Source: Mesostigma viride | Taxonomy: Eukaryota > Streptophyta > Mesostigmatophyceae > Mesostigmatales > Mesostigmataceae | NCBI GenBank assembly: GCA_009746045.1 | Contig: RPFO01000050.1 | Location: 2,220,368 to 2,284,367 of the forward strand | Direction: 5' to 3' | DNA length: 64,000 bases | Part shown: piece by piece, positions 6,400 through 43,767 of the stretch | Layout of the letters: the number at the start of each line of letters is the position of its first letter | Position numbering within the stretch: the first letter of the stretch is position 1 | Position numbers and translations under genes: made by a program | Notes under the pieces: model-generated | What the model saw: the letters and a program-made list of their open reading frames with translations, nothing else | The model's database searches: none | Told to the model about the DNA's origin: nothing

Positions 6400-9300
6400 T
6401 CATTTGGCTACAGAGGAGACTATAAGGGGCTGCTGGCTTTCCTCATCTATTTCCTTCTTCTGAACCACCCTGCCACGTTTCTTGGCTTCACCATACAAGA
6501 TCACCCCTGTTACGGCGATGCCATAGCCAACCATGCCCACCAGGGTCACTGGGTTGCGGAACAACAGGATCGATATTACGACCGCCACGGCTCCCTTGGC
6601 GTTCCCAAGCACCTGCATGGCAAAGTGACCCCCCGCAAACAATGCAGAAAATTATCATAAAATTTCTGATTTGGCAAAATTATCCCCACCACCCTCACAA
6701 CGCACTGAACAACACACCTAGTAATTGTGTATATCGCTATAACTATAGCTATAACTGTACTATAACTATGTGTTCCCGTGGGGGGGCACAGAGCATCCAA
6801 TCTTCGTGATGGTGATGGAAGCACCACCCGTCCCATCGACTACAAAGCCAACGAGACGAAGTGTCTGGGAATCACACGGGTGTTTGCAGTGCGTACCTGA
6901 GTGAAGTGACACTTTTGAAGGTCACTTTTGTGGGGCCTGTCGTTGAATCTAAATGTTACTCACACGCTCATCATGTTAGGACTACGAGTGGGTGGGCAGT
7001 AGTGTAAGGACACAACCATGTGTGGGTAGCACTGCAGATGAGATAAAATCGCTTTACTCGCATCCACCCTGGGGTAGGGAAGCCAGGCACACCCAACCCA
7101 TTAAGCTGTTGCCCCGATGCGGAGCCCAACTGGCCGAACACACAGCAATTACCAACCCCAATAAGCTGTTGCCCCAAATGCGGAGCCCAACTGGGCAAAT
7201 TCACAGCAACCACTAAGCCTGCAACCCTGGTTCAGGCAAAGAGTGCAGCCCAGTAGATTCAGTGCGTGCCTGGCAACGGCTCTGTGGGCCGGCTCACCCC
7301 GCGCCAAGATGAGCAGACGTAGCCACACTGGTTGGGAAACATTGGGCGTGATGACATCTAGCCAACTAGGCGACATCCTTTGGTACCACCAGTGCATGCA
7401 GCATACGCTGCTTGGGTGTTCTCCCCTGCAGCTCTCACCGTTGGCTGCACCGCATGCCCCCGCCCCAACAACCCCACCCAACGCTCACACAACCCAAGCC
7501 CCCACAACTCTACCCAATGTCAAGATGAACGACTTGTTTACCACAATCCTGCAAAACCTGCTCCCCTGAGCCGCCCTCACCGCTACCTTCCCAAGGACCG
7601 AGAGCACCTTCCAAAGCCGCTAGCTTCCAAGGTCTTTCCGAAATTCCTACCTTCCATAGCCGCTAGCTTCTAAAGTCCTTCCCAGGGCCTGAGCGCACTA
7701 CCAGCTCTCACCGTTGACTGCACTGCATGCCCTGCCCTCGTCCAGGCCAGAAAGAAACACTACAGTGATCCCAATCCTGCTATACCTGCCCATGAAACAC
7801 TGACCTTAACCCGATCCTGCAAAACCTGCCCCCCTGCCACCCTCATCGCGAGTGAACACCCTCTACACGCGCGTGCTTGCCCACCCCCAAGCAACCATGA
7901 CTAAAGTAAGCAAGAACTTGCATGCCATGCGCAAACGGCATGGCACGCAAAGTTCTCGCTGACAATACACGAGCAGCACGCCCAAGTTCTTGCTCAGCAC
8001 TATGCTGGCAACCAGAAGCAAACTCCTGCCCAGGTCCTGCAAAACCCGCCGCCTCACCTACCCAGGTCCTGCAGACCCCACAGCCTCACCAGCAGTGTAA
8101 TGACATCTAGCCATCAATCTAGCCTCACCTGCAGCGTGATGACACCTAGCCATCAATCTACCCTCACCTGCAGTGTGATGACATCTAGCCATCAATCTAG
8201 CCTCACCTGCAGCGTGATGACATCTAGCCATCAATCTAGCCTCACCTGCAGTGTGATGACATCTAGCCATCAATCTAGCCTCACCTGGAGCGTGAGCGGG
8301 CTGGTGTGGCGCGTGACAAGGAAGTTCGTTATGTTGCCGCAGTAGGCGATGAGCGAGTTGAGCGTGAGCAGCAGCAGGATGGTCCCGTCCTGCCGCGTGC
8401 GCGCGATGAGCACAGCCGCCACGTTGCCCTCCAGCACCAGCGACGCGGGCAGCAGGATCATGCACGCGATCGGGGCGATGTACATGAGCAGGTTGATGCT
8501 GTTGAGCTTCTCGCTGGCAGCCGCCGCCGCCGCCGCCGCCGCGCGTGGTGAGCGTGGGGTGGGGCAGCGTGTGGGTTGGGGTCGTGCGTGTACGCATAGT
8601 TGCGTATGTGTGCATTAGTGTGTGTGTCAGTGTGTGTGTATGTGTGTGCATGTGTGTGTATGTGTGTGTGCATGTGTGCTTGTACGTGTGTGCGTGTGTA
8701 TTTGTGCATGTGTGTGTAAGGTGTGTTGCTATCGCCAGTATGTTGTGAAAGTTTGTGCATGTTGTTATCGCCAGTCGTGGAGATGCATTGGGCGGTGGTG
8801 GTGAGAGGCGGTTGGGGTGGGGTGGTGGGCGACAGGGCACAGCCGGGGGGATGGCACAGGCAGGGGAGGTACCACAGGGACGGAACACGCCGAGCTTTAT
8901 TAGTAGTTGCATACTACTATAGGGTGGCCACGGTGGACCGTGCGGAGCTTTCTCTTGGGGTCCCCACTGGGCTACGAGATACCGGATGCTATGTGTGGTT
9001 CCCCGTCATTCACCGCCTGCTACATATAATCATCCATCATTCACTGCCTGTGGGGCCCCCGTGATCGAGTGACCAGGGAGAGACGGTCACGGCAGGTAGC
9101 ATCCGATCAGAGGGGGAACAGGGTGATGGCAAGCAAAGGAAGACACAAGGGGAGGAAGACACGCACGAGGGCCGAGTGCAAGGGGAGGAGCACGCACGCA
9201 CGAGGGCCAAGGCAGCCAAAGCAAGCGACTGAAGCAAACAAGAGAGGGCACATCGAGCGGGAGCATGACTAGAGAGGGGATACCTCCTGAGGGCACGCCC

Positions 9301-37906: not shown

Positions 37907-40900
37907 ATGGCTGCTGCTGCAACGGCTGTGAGGCGTCTGGTGGATAGCGTCCCCAGAAGTGTTGTGGACGACATTTACAGATGTTCTTTCCAAAAGCAGA
38001 CAGGCGTCACCCTCAAATACATGTAGGTTCCCGTTTCAATATATTCCTTCGGTTGCCATTCTGCACGTCACCAGCCGTTGTTTTTTGCATGATGACGATG
38101 TCGTCAGTAAAGCATTCCCCAGTCTTATTGCTGGCGCATGCCTATGGCTTTCTCGTCCACGTTTGCGCGTTCAGGCTGGGCTTTGGGGCCCATCCTACGG
38201 CAGAGACACTGGTTCAATCAGGCCAGTTTCTGCATAGAGAGCTCCCCGTCCGACTGGCGCACCGGGTTACTGATTTAGAAAACCTGCCATACGGATTGTC
38301 CAGTAAACTTCCAGTCCAGAGGGTGAGTTGCAAGATCGGTTGTAGCACCATTCCGTCCACCCTGTCGGACAACCGGCGCGGGAATAAACTCAACTCAACT
38401 CAACTCTACTCGCCATTCCGTCCTTTGCACCTCTAAACGTTGCTCTGCCGTCGATTTTCCTTGGAGCGTACAGACTGCCTCAAAAGCATATGGCAATGCT
38501 TTGAATGTGGTATCTTTATGCACGTTGTGTGGCATGGTGCTCGGTCTACCATGGGATCGGCGCTGACCAACTTGGGTGACTTGACGATCTTATTATACCT
38601 GGGAATCTGGACGCCACCGCTTTTGCGGATGTGATGCCAGTTACTGTTGGTTGGATGCTATAACATGCTCTCAGGCATGTGGGGGGGTTGCTATCTATGT
38701 GCATGCATGGACCAGCAATGAACGATGAGCGTATATACTGTTCAATAATCTTCTGCTTGGGCACTTCAGGTTAGCTAAGTCTCCATGGTTGGCACCCACC
38801 AATCCATACAATAACCCACTTACTGATTAAGCCACCCACCCACCCACCCACCCACCCACCCACCCACCCACCCACCACCCACCCACCCACCCACCCACCC
38901 ACCCACCCACCCACCCACCCACCCACCCACCCACCCACCCACCCACCCACCCACCCACCCACCCACCCACCCACCCACCCACCCACCCACCCACCCACCC
39001 ACCCACCCACCGACCCACCCACCCACCCACCCACCCACCCACCCACCCACCCACCCACCCACCCACCCACCCACCCACCCACCCACCCACCCACCACCCA
39101 CCCACCCACCCACCCACCCACCCACCCACCCACCCACCCACCCACCAAGTCATTTACTCACTTGTGGATCCCATGAAGAAGACATTGACCAGCCCCTCCC
39201 ACACCCAGCGGCCCAGGAAAGAGGGAACTCTCCGCTGTATGGCCATGCACCCAGTTTGCTGATGTATGGTATGCTCCTGTACAGCATTCTAAATTCTACA
39301 ACAATATACAGTGACATAGTGATGTAGTGATGTATTGATATAGTGATACATCGCTATGCTGATATATCAATATAGCTCTGGAGGCGCGCATTTTATTGTT
39401 TGCATTCCTGGGGGGGGGTGAGATTTTCCGACAGCTTGGTTGTATGCCCCCGTCGTCTTAAGCCTCCCTGGCCCCCTTCCCAAATGCGAGGAAATGAAAC
39501 ACACGATGCATCCCATGGACCCCGCTGTCCGGCCCCACGGCAACCTACTCGGTCCCTCTCCTCCCCACTCGCAACCCCCCACGCGCTTCTCTACCCGTCG
39601 AATTCCACGCTTACACCCCCAACCCACCCGCAACGTGCAAAACCCTCCAACCTTACCGCATCTCTATCCCCATCTCCCCACCTACATGCATATGGCTTGA
39701 TTCCTAACTGTATCTCCCCCTTGCCTCCCTACCTTCCCTCCATCATCTCTCCTCCCTATCGTTCACCCCATCCTGCCCCTAATTCCCCCCCCCCCCTTCC
39801 CCACGCCCGCAATCACCCTTGACGCTCCCCAAACAACCCCCCCCCACAGGTGCGTGACTGGTACGTGGAATCATTCCGCGACCTGCGCAACTTCCCCCCC
39901 ATCAAGGACAGCGCGGACGAGCGCGCGTTCACGCGGCTCATCCAGGTCATCAAGGACCGCCACCGCGACGTGGTGCCCACGCTCGCCATCGGTGTGGCGC
40001 AGCTCAAGGCGGAGCTCAGCCGCAAGAGCATCACGCACCTGCCGGATGTGCACCACTTCCTGGACAAGTTCTACATGTCCCGCATCGGCATACGCATGCT
40101 CATAGGTGGGGTGGATGTACGCATGCTCATAGGTGGGTTGGATGTACGCATGCTCATAGGTGGGGTGGATGTACGCATGCTCATAGGTGGGTTGGATGTA
40201 CGCATGCTCATAGGTGGGGTGGATGTACGCATGCTCATAGGTGGGGTGGATGTACGCATGCTCATAGGTGGGTTGGATGTACGCATGCTCATAGGTGGGG
40301 TGGATGTACGCATGCTCATAGGTGGGTTGGATGTACGCATGCTCATAGGTGGGGTGGATGTACGCATGCTCATAGGTGGGGTGGATGTACGCATGCTCAT
40401 AGGTGGGGTGGATGTACGCATGCTCATCGGTGGGGTGGATGTACGCATGCTCATAGGTGGGGTGGATGTACGCATGCTCATCGGTGGGGTGGATGTACGC
40501 ATGCTCATAGGTGGGTTGGATGTACGCATGCTCATCGGTGGGGTGGATGTACGCATGCTCATAGGTGGGGTGGATGTACGCATGCTCATAGGTGGGTTGG
40601 ATGTACGCATGCTCATAGGTGGGTTGGATGTACGCATGCTCATAGGTGGGGTGGATGTAGGCATGCTCATAGGTGGGTTGGATGTAGGCATGCTCATAGG
40701 TGGGTTGGATGTACGCATGCTCATAGGTGGGTTGGATGTACGCATGCTCATAGGTGGGTTGGATGTACGCATGCTCATAGGTGGGTTGGATGTACGCATG
40801 CTCATAGGTGGGGTGGATGTACGCATGCTCATAGGTGGGTTGGATGTACGCATGCTCATAGGTGGGTTGGATGTACGCATGCTCATAGGTGGGGTGGATG

Positions 40901-43767
40901 TACGCATGCTCATAGGTGGGGTGGATGTAGGCATGCTCATAGGTGGGGTGGATGTACGCATGCTCATAGGTGGGTTGGATGTACGCATGCTCATAGGTGG
41001 GTTGGATGTAGGCATGCTCATAGGTGGGTTGGATGTACGCATGCTCATAGGTGGGTTGGATGTACGCATGCTCATAGGTGGGGTGGATGTACGCATGCTC
41101 ATAGGTGGGTTGGATGTACGCATGCTCATAGGTGGGTTGGATGTACGCATGCTCATAGGTGGGTTGGATGTACGCATGCTCATAGGTGGGGTGGATGTAC
41201 GCATGCTCATAGGTGGGGTGGATGTAGGCATGCTCATAGGTGGGGTGGATGTACGCATGCTCATAGGTGGGGTGGATGTACACATGCTCATCGGTGGGTT
41301 GGATGTAGGCATGCTCATAGGTGGGGTGGATGTACGCATGCTCATAGGTGGGTTGGATGTACGCATGCTCATAGGTGGGGTGGATGTACGCATGCTCATA
41401 GGTGGGGTGGATGTACGCATGCTCATCGGTGGGTTGGATGTAGGCATGCTCATAGGTGGGGTGGATGTACGCATGCTCATAGGTGGGGTGGATGTACGCA
41501 TGCTCATAGGTGGGTTGGATGTACGCATGCTCATAGGTGGGGTGGATGTACGCATGCTCATAGGTGGGTTGGATGTACGCATGCTCATAGGTGGGGTGGA
41601 TGTACGCATGCTCATAGGTGGGGTGGATGTACGCATGCTCATAGGTGGGGTGGATGTAGGCATGCTCATAGGTGGGGTGGATGTACGCATGCTCATAGGT
41701 GGGGTGGGGGAGGAGGGCAAGGGGGGAACTTGGGTGGGTGGCGCATTAGAACACGCATGCTCGCAGGTGGGTGTTCGGGGGTAAGGAGGTCCCAGAGGGG
41801 GGGACTAGGTGAGACGAAGGCACACGGAGGACAGGTCTGGGCTAGGTTAAGGGCATGTGCCTAGCATTTTTTGCGCTCACTTAAAAGAAGAGCGTGCGGG
41901 GGGGGGTGCACGTGTGGGTGATCAAGGTTTATCTCTCTCTGAGCACATGTGGCCTGGCTCATGTGCGGCGTATGTGCGGCTCCCCCCTCCCCCCCCCCGC
42001 CAGGTCAGCACGTGGCGCTCCATAACAAGGACCCTCCTCCCGAGTTCATCGGCCTCATCTCCACGCGCACGCGACCGGTGACGGTCGCCAAGGACGCGAT
42101 CGATGATGCACGCGCGCGCTGCATGGCCACCTATGGGGAGGCGCCCGAGGTGCACATCTACGGCGACCCGGACTTTGGATTTCCGTGAGTTTGTATATCA
42201 GGGCTTTCCTTTATGGGAGAGCAATCTAACCAACTGCGCAAGCCTACGGAAGGGCCTGTCTCGCGAGTCTAGTGATATGCTACTAAAGCCTGTGCTAGCA
42301 TGGCCATCATGAACCCAAGCCACTCAATCGCAGCTCACAAGGCACCGTCACGAATGCACAGATCGCGCTTTTATCTCGCATAGCGCACCGCTTCAACCCC
42401 GGACGTATGAGCGCCCGCCATATTCTCTTCTCCCTCCCCACCCCCACCATACTGTCCGCTTCATTCATTTCCCGCGCCCCCCCCCCCCTGTCCTGCCCCT
42501 ACCCTTTCAACCCCTACCCACCCACCCACCCACCCACCCACCCACCCACCCGCCCGCCCGCCCGCCCGCCCGCCCGCCCGCCGCCCGCCCGCCCGCCCGC
42601 CGCCCGCCCGCCCGCCCGCCCGCCCGCCCGCCCGCCCCGCCCGCCCGCCCGCCCGCCCGCCCGCCCGCCCGCGCCGCCCGCCCGCCGCCCGCCCGCCCGC
42701 CCACCCACCCACCCACCCACCCACCAGGGACTCCGGCACCCTTTTAATGCTCACCTTTCTATCGGACTTGGGGTTTGGTCACCCTCCCTGTTGTGTGCCC
42801 CCCCTGCCTCCCTCCCCCTTTTCCTACACATTGCTACGTTCCGGCCGTCTGCACCCTTGTAATGCTCACCCTTGGAATGGACTGTTCCCCCTGTTCCCGT
42901 GACCCCACACGCAGCTACGTACCCGGCCACCTCCACCACATCATCTTTGAGCTGGTCAAGAACTCGCTGCGCGCGGTGCAGGAGCGGTTCCAGCACACGA
43001 GCGCCGAGCCGCCGCCCATCCGTGTGATCGTGGCCAACGGGGACGAGGACGTGACCGTGAAGGTGAGTGCGGGAGCAGTGGATGATGGTTGTGTGTGTGG
43101 GGGGGGGGGGGGGGGGGGGGGGGGCGTGGATGGGTGCATGTCTGCCCATCCGCGTGAAGAGGGTCGAGGGATCAGTCCATGGTTGTTGTGGGGGAGGGGG
43201 AGGGGGGGTATGGTACATGTCTGCCCATTCGTGTGAAGATGGGTGAGGGGTAAGGGAGGAAGGGAAGAGTAGATGATGGTCGTGTTGGGTGGTGGTGGTG
43301 GTGTTGGTGTGGGGGGTCAGTATTCAGTCACTAATATCCAGCCTTTTGTACTAGTCTTTTTTGTACATACTGAGTACTTATGTGTACGGTTTGTACTTGC
43401 GGAGTAGTTTCGTGGACGGTGTACTTTAGTCGCTGGCCATGCTTCTTATTCCGTGCTTTTTATCCCTCCCCCGCCCCCCGCCCCCCACCCGCAGATCTCG
43501 GACGAAGGCGGCGGCATCCCCCGCAGCGGCATGCCCAAGATCTGGACGTACCTGTACTCGACCGCTCACGCACTGCCATCCAACGTGGACCTGGAGACGA
43601 CGGAGCTGCCCGCGCTGCTGGCCGGGTACGGTTACGGGCTGCCGCTCTCGCGCCTCTACGCGCGCTACTTTGGGGGCGACATGCAGATCATCTCAATGGA
43701 AGGGTACGGGACCGACGCGTACGTCCACCTGCACCTGCTCGGCAACGCGGTGGAGCCGCTGCCGTGA
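37907..43767 (+). CDS. PDK: Pyruvate dehydrogenase kinase (mitochondrial), six exons, 373 aa
   Basis: Exons: 37907-38022, 38175-38322, 39850-40105, 42004-42184, 42915-43062, 43495-43767. Lengths 116+148+256+181+148+273 equal 374 codons, in phase throughout with GT-AG introns. The enzyme phosphorylates serine of the E1-alpha subunit and switches off the mitochondrial pyruvate dehydrogenase complex. Visible features: QTGVTLKYM, QFLHRELPVRLAHR and WYVESFRDLRNFPP in the helical regulatory half; then the GHKL ATPase with N-box HHIIFELVKNSLRA (residues ~240-255), G1 box DEGGGIP (~286) and G2 box GYGYGLPLSRLYARYFGGD (~327). Length fits plant PDKs (~366). The start is the first ATG after the divergent spacer; a strong presequence is not evident. 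Exon 3's donor begins a 59-unit minisatellite. Introns also hold (ACCC)n, CCCG/CCCA and G-run arrays. Confidence 0.95.
38828..39147. repeat. (ACCC)n tetranucleotide array, about 320 bp
   Basis: Almost pure CCCA repeats with two CCACCA slips and one CCGA variant, inside PDK intron 2. Gly-Trp-Val reading frames across it are artefacts. Confidence 0.95.
40106..41698 (+). repeat. 59-unit, 27-bp minisatellite recopying the PDK exon 3 donor
   Basis: Every unit ends GCATGCTCATAG and is followed by GTGGGG or GTGGGT, reproducing the exon 3 end and 5' splice site. From the first donor (after 40105) to the last copy (after 41698) is 1593 bp, exactly 59 x 27, so there are no indels. Variation is confined to three positions per unit (G/T, C/G, A/C). 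27 bp is nine codons (about RMLIGGVDV) and no stop occurs in the exon's frame until 41784. Confidence 0.97.
42515..42725. repeat. CCCA-CCCG tetranucleotide array
   Basis: CCCA units pass into CCCG units and back to CCCA, within PDK intron 4. Proline/arginine-rich frames here are artefacts. Confidence 0.95.
43098..43124. repeat. G homopolymer in PDK intron 5
   Basis: A ~25-base G run shortly after the exon 5 donor. Confidence 0.9.

Follow-up and report, generated by a model that had tools for sequence, protein, structure and literature searches.

A 27-bp minisatellite carrying 60 copies of a splice donor at the exon 3/intron 3 junction of a pyruvate dehydrogenase kinase gene in Mesostigma viride

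RESULTS

The PDK gene and its third junction

The window (the whole 64-kb stretch of Mesostigma viride DNA that was analyzed) contains a gene for pyruvate dehydrogenase kinase (PDK) with six exons and with a minisatellite at its exon 3/intron 3 junction. Exons were placed by tblastn of an M. viride gene model, P0001 (EukProt jgi/Mesvir1/21618/Mv04041-RA.1); in the features below and in the text, a slash marks a splice point.

37907..38022, plus strand: PDK exon 1, donor AT/GTAGGT
38175..38322, plus strand: PDK exon 2, donor at 38323
39850..40105, plus strand: PDK exon 3, ending ...SRIGIRMLI-G/ (also Pfam BCDHK_Adom3)
40106..42003, plus strand: PDK intron 3, containing the array (P0001 join RMLIG/QHVALH)
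40091..41707, plus strand: 27-bp minisatellite, 59.9 copies, with 60 donor copies (TRF and exact-word positions)
41754..41772, plus strand: decayed 61st junction copy, first donor base 41767, phase 2 (predicted U1 energy, -13.5)
42004..42184, plus strand: PDK exon 4 (QHVALHNK...)
42915..43062, plus strand: PDK exon 5
43495..43767, plus strand: PDK exon 6, including the stop codon

The gene had initially been annotated as PDK from its sequence, and this identity was confirmed. Exon 3 matched Pfam family BCDHK_Adom3 (3.4e-24), exons 3 to 6 were 100% identical to P0001 over 285 amino acids, and P0001 matched structures of PDK isozyme 2 (6e-71), identifying the product as mitochondrial pyruvate dehydrogenase kinase. 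Exon 3 ends in phase 1 inside the conserved motif RMLIG/QH, and residues I169, R170, L172, I173, G174, and Q175 were invariant in 25 of 25 rows of an alignment of P0001 with 24 relatives hand-picked from the best 120 of 4,790 matches. In a structure model of P0001 computed from a shallow alignment of 25 rows (mean pLDDT, 72; 70 for residues 161 to 170 and 87 for residues 171 to 180), residues 153 to 179 form a single predicted helix. The exon join falls at G174/Q175, placing the insertion point of any array-encoded peptide within that helix and in no linker. In human PDK2, the corresponding helix presumably borders the pyruvate/dichloroacetate pocket. Each array unit resupplies RMLIG ahead of QHVALH; in the model, an insert of GVDVRMLIG units would nevertheless disrupt the helix.

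Long tetranucleotide tracts (CCAG, CCAC, and CCCG) were also present in the window at 885 to 1139, at 38832 to 39146 (within PDK intron 2), and at 42517 to 42722 (within PDK intron 4). Rfam and tRNA scans of the 64-kb window returned no matches.

Anatomy of the 27-bp array

Tandem repeat analysis of the PDK array gave a period of 27 with 96% matches and 0% indels. The exact word CATGCTCAT occurred 60 times between 40095 and 41688, with all 59 spacings equal to 27, and the first intron base of the donor copies lies at 40106 + 27n (n = 0 to 59). Exact-word spacing and TRF thus agree with the initial annotation, which had described an indel-free span of 59 x 27 bp (1,593 bases, 40106 to 41698) beginning at the donor of exon 3 (first intron base, 40106). 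Each unit consists of an exact copy of 15 nucleotides of exon 3 (TACGCATGCTCATAG) followed by 12 nucleotides of intron, meaning that the copied segment straddles an existing exon-intron junction. The 16-mer CATGCTCATAGGTGGG had 55 matches in the 440-Mb genome (searched as the 439.9-Mb assembly), all of them inside the PDK array. In that assembly, the window occupies C446:2220368-2284367.

Four columns of the unit vary (column 6, G/T, 33:26; column 15, C/G, 51:8; column 16, G/A, 58:1; column 26, A/C, 54:5), rather than the three sites per unit proposed earlier. Columns 6 and 26 correspond to positions +6 and -2 relative to the donor. It had also been proposed that all units restore the same donor. 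This held for GTGGG on the intron side and failed on the exon side, where 5 of 59 units end in CATCG: 55 of the 60 donors read CATAG/GTGGG, and the other 5 read CATCG/GTGGG, with CG/GT instead of AG/GT. A G-rich intron stretch at the end of the array is followed by the decayed junction copy at 41767 (CGCATGCTCGCAG/GTGGGT), which is out of phase and whose use would shift the frame. Intron 3 extends approximately 300 bp beyond the array.

The assembly is very likely that of strain NIES-296 by Liang et al. (PMC6947507), for which the excerpted text describes PacBio reads with an N50 of 11.2 kb, assembly with Canu, an optical map, and short-read polishing with Pilon. Canu and Pilon could in principle misjudge copy number or homogenize units, but reads of this length easily span 1.6 kb, the junction copy that stands apart at 41767 shows decay, and the unit variants are scattered, with no significant higher-order block structure in the array and with a longest repeated run of 7 units (P = 0.19 versus shuffles). 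Copy number or regularity created by the assembler or by polishing is therefore considered very unlikely; the exact PDK copy number is given as it stands in this one assembly.

Donor strength and the form in the gene model

Donor strength was scored as predicted pairing with the 5' end of U1 (in kilocalories per mole). Among the 60 array donors, the energy was -9.5 in 31 (including the first donor), -10.1 in 24, -8.6 in 2, and -8.0 in 3, which bears out the earlier description of 60 near-equivalent donors (-8.0 to -10.1); the other four PDK donors ranged from -5.7 to -11.8. All 60 donors would join exon 4 in phase, and translation of the PDK frame through the array, in which 27 bp make nine codons, met no stop until the one ending at 41784, both as the initial annotation had stated.

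From these properties, the initial annotation had proposed a ladder in which many of the 60 donors are used, yielding a series of PDK proteins in 9-residue steps as functional or noisy diversity. In its favor, 55 of the 60 donors are near identical and most of the downstream ones match the first in predicted U1 pairing. The strongest predicted donor of the gene is nevertheless that at 41767, in the wrong phase, and the M. viride PDK gene model P0001 joins the first donor to 42004 and so represents the zero-repeat form, with the array skipped. P0001 is the sole member of its cluster. No second M. viride PDK form or longer isoform was found among the best 120 of 4,790 protein matches, in which no other entry exceeded 69% identity, and a protein search with residues 70 to 190 of the array ORF gave no passing match among the 7,998 scored candidates sharing the most words. 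An insert after residue 174 would fall inside the predicted 27-residue helix, next to invariant residues. The proposed ladder is thus not supported by the protein entries and appears unlikely as a main output of the gene; the extra donor copies are probably mostly unused. Use of the first donor is read here from two gene models, that of PDK and that of a transporter described below, together with protein conservation.

Other donor-spanning repeats in the genome

A second minisatellite that begins at a donor was found in the same window.

8082..8295, minus strand: 39-bp minisatellite of 5.5 copies across the donor of a triose-phosphate-transporter-type gene (TRF and Pfam TPT)

This array starts at the donor CTCCAG/GTGAGG of an exon ending ...TSPLTLQ. 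Intact donor copies lie at 8284, 8245, 8206, 8167, and 8128, and decayed or off-spaced copies lie at 8089 and 8057. The joined exons matched Pfam TPT (1.7e-17), and the gene (at 6 to 11 kb of the window) was 87% identical to gene model P0121 (Mv04039-RA.2) over 95% of the query, in which one exon is missing. P0121 joins LTLQ/VLGN, which corresponds to the first donor, and the 39-bp unit carries an in-frame TGA. The transporter and PDK models differ by two in number (Mv04039 and Mv04041).

The genome was further interrogated with a loose search (triple AGGTGAG at unit-like gaps), for which the approximately 100 matches listed fell at 14 distinct places, 9 of which were fetched, and with a strict search (paired CAGGTGAGT), which gave 51 matches at 18 places, 17 of which were fetched. 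Four of the 9 loose-search places begin at a coding exon. They were a kinase (L039; Pfam, 1.1e-26 jointly with the following exon), an RNase PH-type exonuclease (L041; Pfam, 4e-14), a sulfotransferase-like gene with 36 bp x 13 (L044; Pfam E of 0.0048, below the cutoff, with a matching next exon recognized by eye in L059), and a second kinase with units mostly of 36 to 42 bp (L046; no Pfam match, with a glycine-loop motif and a next exon recognized by eye in L058). Seven of the 17 strict-search places were kept because a long coding-like frame reached the first copy, a choice made by eye and partly a matter of judgment, and each had two or three copies. These included an ABC1 kinase (L062; Pfam, 1.7e-8), a leucine-rich repeat (LRR) protein (L066; Pfam, 1.8e-5, below the curated cutoff), and Prp8 (L073, C1768:83800-84400; Pfam, 1.1e-21), where a duplicated donor of 26 bp is no multiple of 3; L064, L072, L075, and L076 were coding-like by open frame alone. 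In total, 11 of 26 other fetched donor-bearing repeats started right where a frame, coding or coding-like, ended (4 by open frame alone). Of the coding-exon cases found, PDK has the most donors. Stops or nontriplet units occurred within the same anatomy in both loose-search kinases (L039 and L046), the RNase PH-type gene (L041), the LRR protein (L066), and Prp8 (L073), and such stops in comparable arrays argue against the proposed ladder of isoforms.

Places that were not counted comprised 5 of 9 from the loose search (L040, L042, L043 [a long satellite], L045, and L047) and 10 of 17 from the strict search (L060, L061, L063, L065, L067 to L071, and L074). Five of these 10 had an open frame of at least 60 amino acids at the first clustered donor (L060, 92; L063, 232; L065, 70; L067, 60; and L071, 170 amino acids).

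Several of the uncounted repeats had features of their own. L040 (C1:1305009-1307017), with dozens of listed matches, shares a 34-bp donor-bearing repeat with C2:4514432, as a dispersed satellite family. In L043 (C2:499000-502600), almost all of the 3.6 kb is taken up by a donor-bearing satellite of approximately 34 to 37 bp (TRF, 98.8 copies). L045 (C14) contains, at 689 to 790 and 1061 to 1189, 27-bp repeats that end in a C-run and CAG/GTGTTCAT beside a coding-like frame and resemble duplicated 3' splice sites, together with, approximately 300 bp further on, a duplication of 63 bp that crosses a possible donor. In L063 (C1424:2264900-2265850, at approximately 670 to 930), a 37-bp unit recurs at the end of the 232-amino-acid open frame, with six donors spaced 37 bp apart; its units, each with GTGAGT, a T-rich tract, and CAG, resemble mini-introns in tandem or a series of recursive splice sites.

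The last of these repeats bears on the possibility that each array unit serves as donor and acceptor alike and that pieces of the array are spliced from one unit to another, in the manner of intron gain through tandem duplication of AGGT segments. The L063 units contain the elements that such splicing would use, and AG and GT adjoin in each CATAG/GTGGG copy of PDK (AG/GT in 55 of 60). In the excerpted account of fission-yeast genes with 24-bp AGGT repeats, introns lie across the duplicates (PMC4974935). The PDK unit, however, has no pyrimidine tract ahead of its AG, and unit-to-unit splicing in this array is considered very unlikely.

Reading frame and unit length

The openness of the array frame is weak evidence of coding use, because each strand has two open frames of three through the array, and a 9-codon unit drawn at random with the window's composition would be open in 69% of draws. 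In the PDK frame, three variable columns are nonsynonymous (V/L, R/G, and R/H) and the fourth is silent (I/I). The columns give no sign of constraint on the array peptide, at least as judged from its sequence, and this too weighs against regular use of many donors. Growth by whole units would keep the 27-bp register without selection. Selection on length, as suggested by the initial annotation, or on frame is thus unnecessary, given the nonsynonymous columns and the comparable arrays with stops or irregular units.

Unit length and frame were compared across 13 cases (PDK, the transporter, the 4 loose-search places, and the 7 strict-search places); all groupings were made post hoc. The gene frame was open in 5 of 13 (PDK, L044, L062, L064, and L072) versus approximately 2.7 expected (P = 0.12), a result on which selection on frame was likewise judged unnecessary. 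Unit length was a multiple of 3 in 8 of 13 cases (P = 0.035 versus one-third, post hoc, with the two irregular arrays counted as negative). Without PDK, the count was 7 of 12 (P = 0.066, post hoc); with the five left-out open-frame places added, it was 11 of 18 (P = 0.014, post hoc); and for all strict-search places, it was 8 of 17 (P = 0.17, post hoc; 4 among the 7 retained and 4 among the 10 excluded). Because of this excess, selection on frame is still alive as an explanation, and some use of downstream donors is possible. The excess counts against a reading in which the first donor is mainly used, as downstream donor use would produce it, and the counts of 8 of 13 and 11 of 18 accordingly stand in favor of the isoform series. 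Where there are two copies, the repeat may be a genuine in-frame extension of the exon.

Representation of donors among repeats

Minisatellites were common, with 24 in approximately 149 kb (9 in the window and 15 in a sample of approximately 85 kb made up of 10 stretches at round coordinates on three large contigs, one stretch being all N and one half N). A donor score of at least 4, a threshold chosen afterwards, was reached by 2 of 24 minisatellite units versus 1 of 24 read backwards (4.0 as rounded); the PDK unit scored 2.9. The triple word AGGTGAG outnumbered its backward control 4,599:1,313 (3.5), compared with 45:12 (3.75) for the single word in a 147-kb sample, and AGGTGAG is not clearly overrepresented in arrays. 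For the strict word, the paired CAGGTGAGT gave 51:11 versus the control (4.6) and the single word gave 2,583:1,831 (1.4). This ratio hints at enrichment at donors; the strict-word counts are lower bounds, and the 51 matches (18 places) come largely from a small number of large arrays. A special mechanism seeding repeats at donors was therefore unsupported by the loose word test and hinted at by the strict one, and a modest donor bias of repeats is compatible with the word counts.

DISCUSSION

The PDK array is likely a donor-spanning minisatellite in which the first donor is mainly used, the later copies being intronic and drifting and the protein normal. For donor choice in RNA, for the mechanism of growth, and for neutrality, we infer the following course. 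Tandem duplication would have started from a segment across the end of exon 3 (15 bases) and the beginning of intron 3 (12 bases), and the copies would have expanded to 59 by whole-unit steps. Splicing would mainly run from the exon-side donor at 40106 to the acceptor at 42003/42004, and because it mainly takes the first donor, the downstream copies would be free to drift as intron, leaving the protein normal. The peptide frame would be open since the founding unit happened to be open. The simplest account of the wider set is that repeats arise broadly in the genome and are tolerated even where they run across a donor, the first copy keeping splicing intact. By their frames and unit lengths, we take the donor-spanning arrays to be mostly neutral, and we see a weak hint of occasional use of downstream donors.

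By analogy, the nearest precedent for the PDK array is the minisatellite of human IFI6. That minisatellite reportedly consists of about 26 copies of a 12-bp unit in frame, and an in-frame, stop-free unit is what we take to be the defining trait of the case. The PDK unit has the same character (27 bp, or nine codons, open to 41784). As excerpted from PMC4526556 (citing Turri 1995), two downstream repeat units of IFI6 serve as donors and three mRNAs result, a small-scale counterpart that speaks for the ladder in PDK. In both, a minisatellite offers multiple donors; the PDK array starts at the true exon donor and carries a donor copy in each unit. According to the same excerpt, IFI6 is known from mRNAs, whereas the PDK case, with a 27-bp unit and 60 donors in an alga, is known here from sequence. 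With IFI6 as a guide, it would be plausible for the one or two donors after the first to be used at a low level (+9 or +18 residues), and use of the distant array donors would be unlikely.

Other systems are less similar in the excerpted texts of their reports. In genes of human segmental duplications, internal repeats of approximately 30 bp at exon-intron boundaries can alter splicing (PMC2812944); novel introns and longer exons are described there in primate paralogues, whereas the PDK gene model is unchanged. Introns from AGGT tandem duplication (PMC4974935) share with PDK the tandem copies of an AG/GT segment, but the copied segment in PDK straddles an existing junction and the gene model has no new intron. 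The intronic minisatellite CeRep25B of Caenorhabditis elegans lies near alternative exons and is linked to splicing (PMC4039745); it differs in its proposed action through regulatory motifs, and the word "donor" is absent from that text. No paper on donor-spanning arrays in Mesostigma was among the matches listed in the open-licence literature, and the terms "tandem repeat," "minisatellite," and "alternative splicing" are absent from the main text of PMC6947507.

It is conceivable, if improbable, that a share of the recurrent donor-spanning minisatellites of M. viride feeds downstream donors into mRNA, so that repeat number would set protein length in many genes, with PDK as the extreme. The 60 near-identical donors within one intron amount to a natural experiment on competition among 5' splice sites, and the graded series in the genome (2 to 60 copies, in and out of frame) would make the rules of donor choice readable from existing RNA data. 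As far as the gene models show, tandem duplication can cross a splice junction in this alga without breaking the gene.
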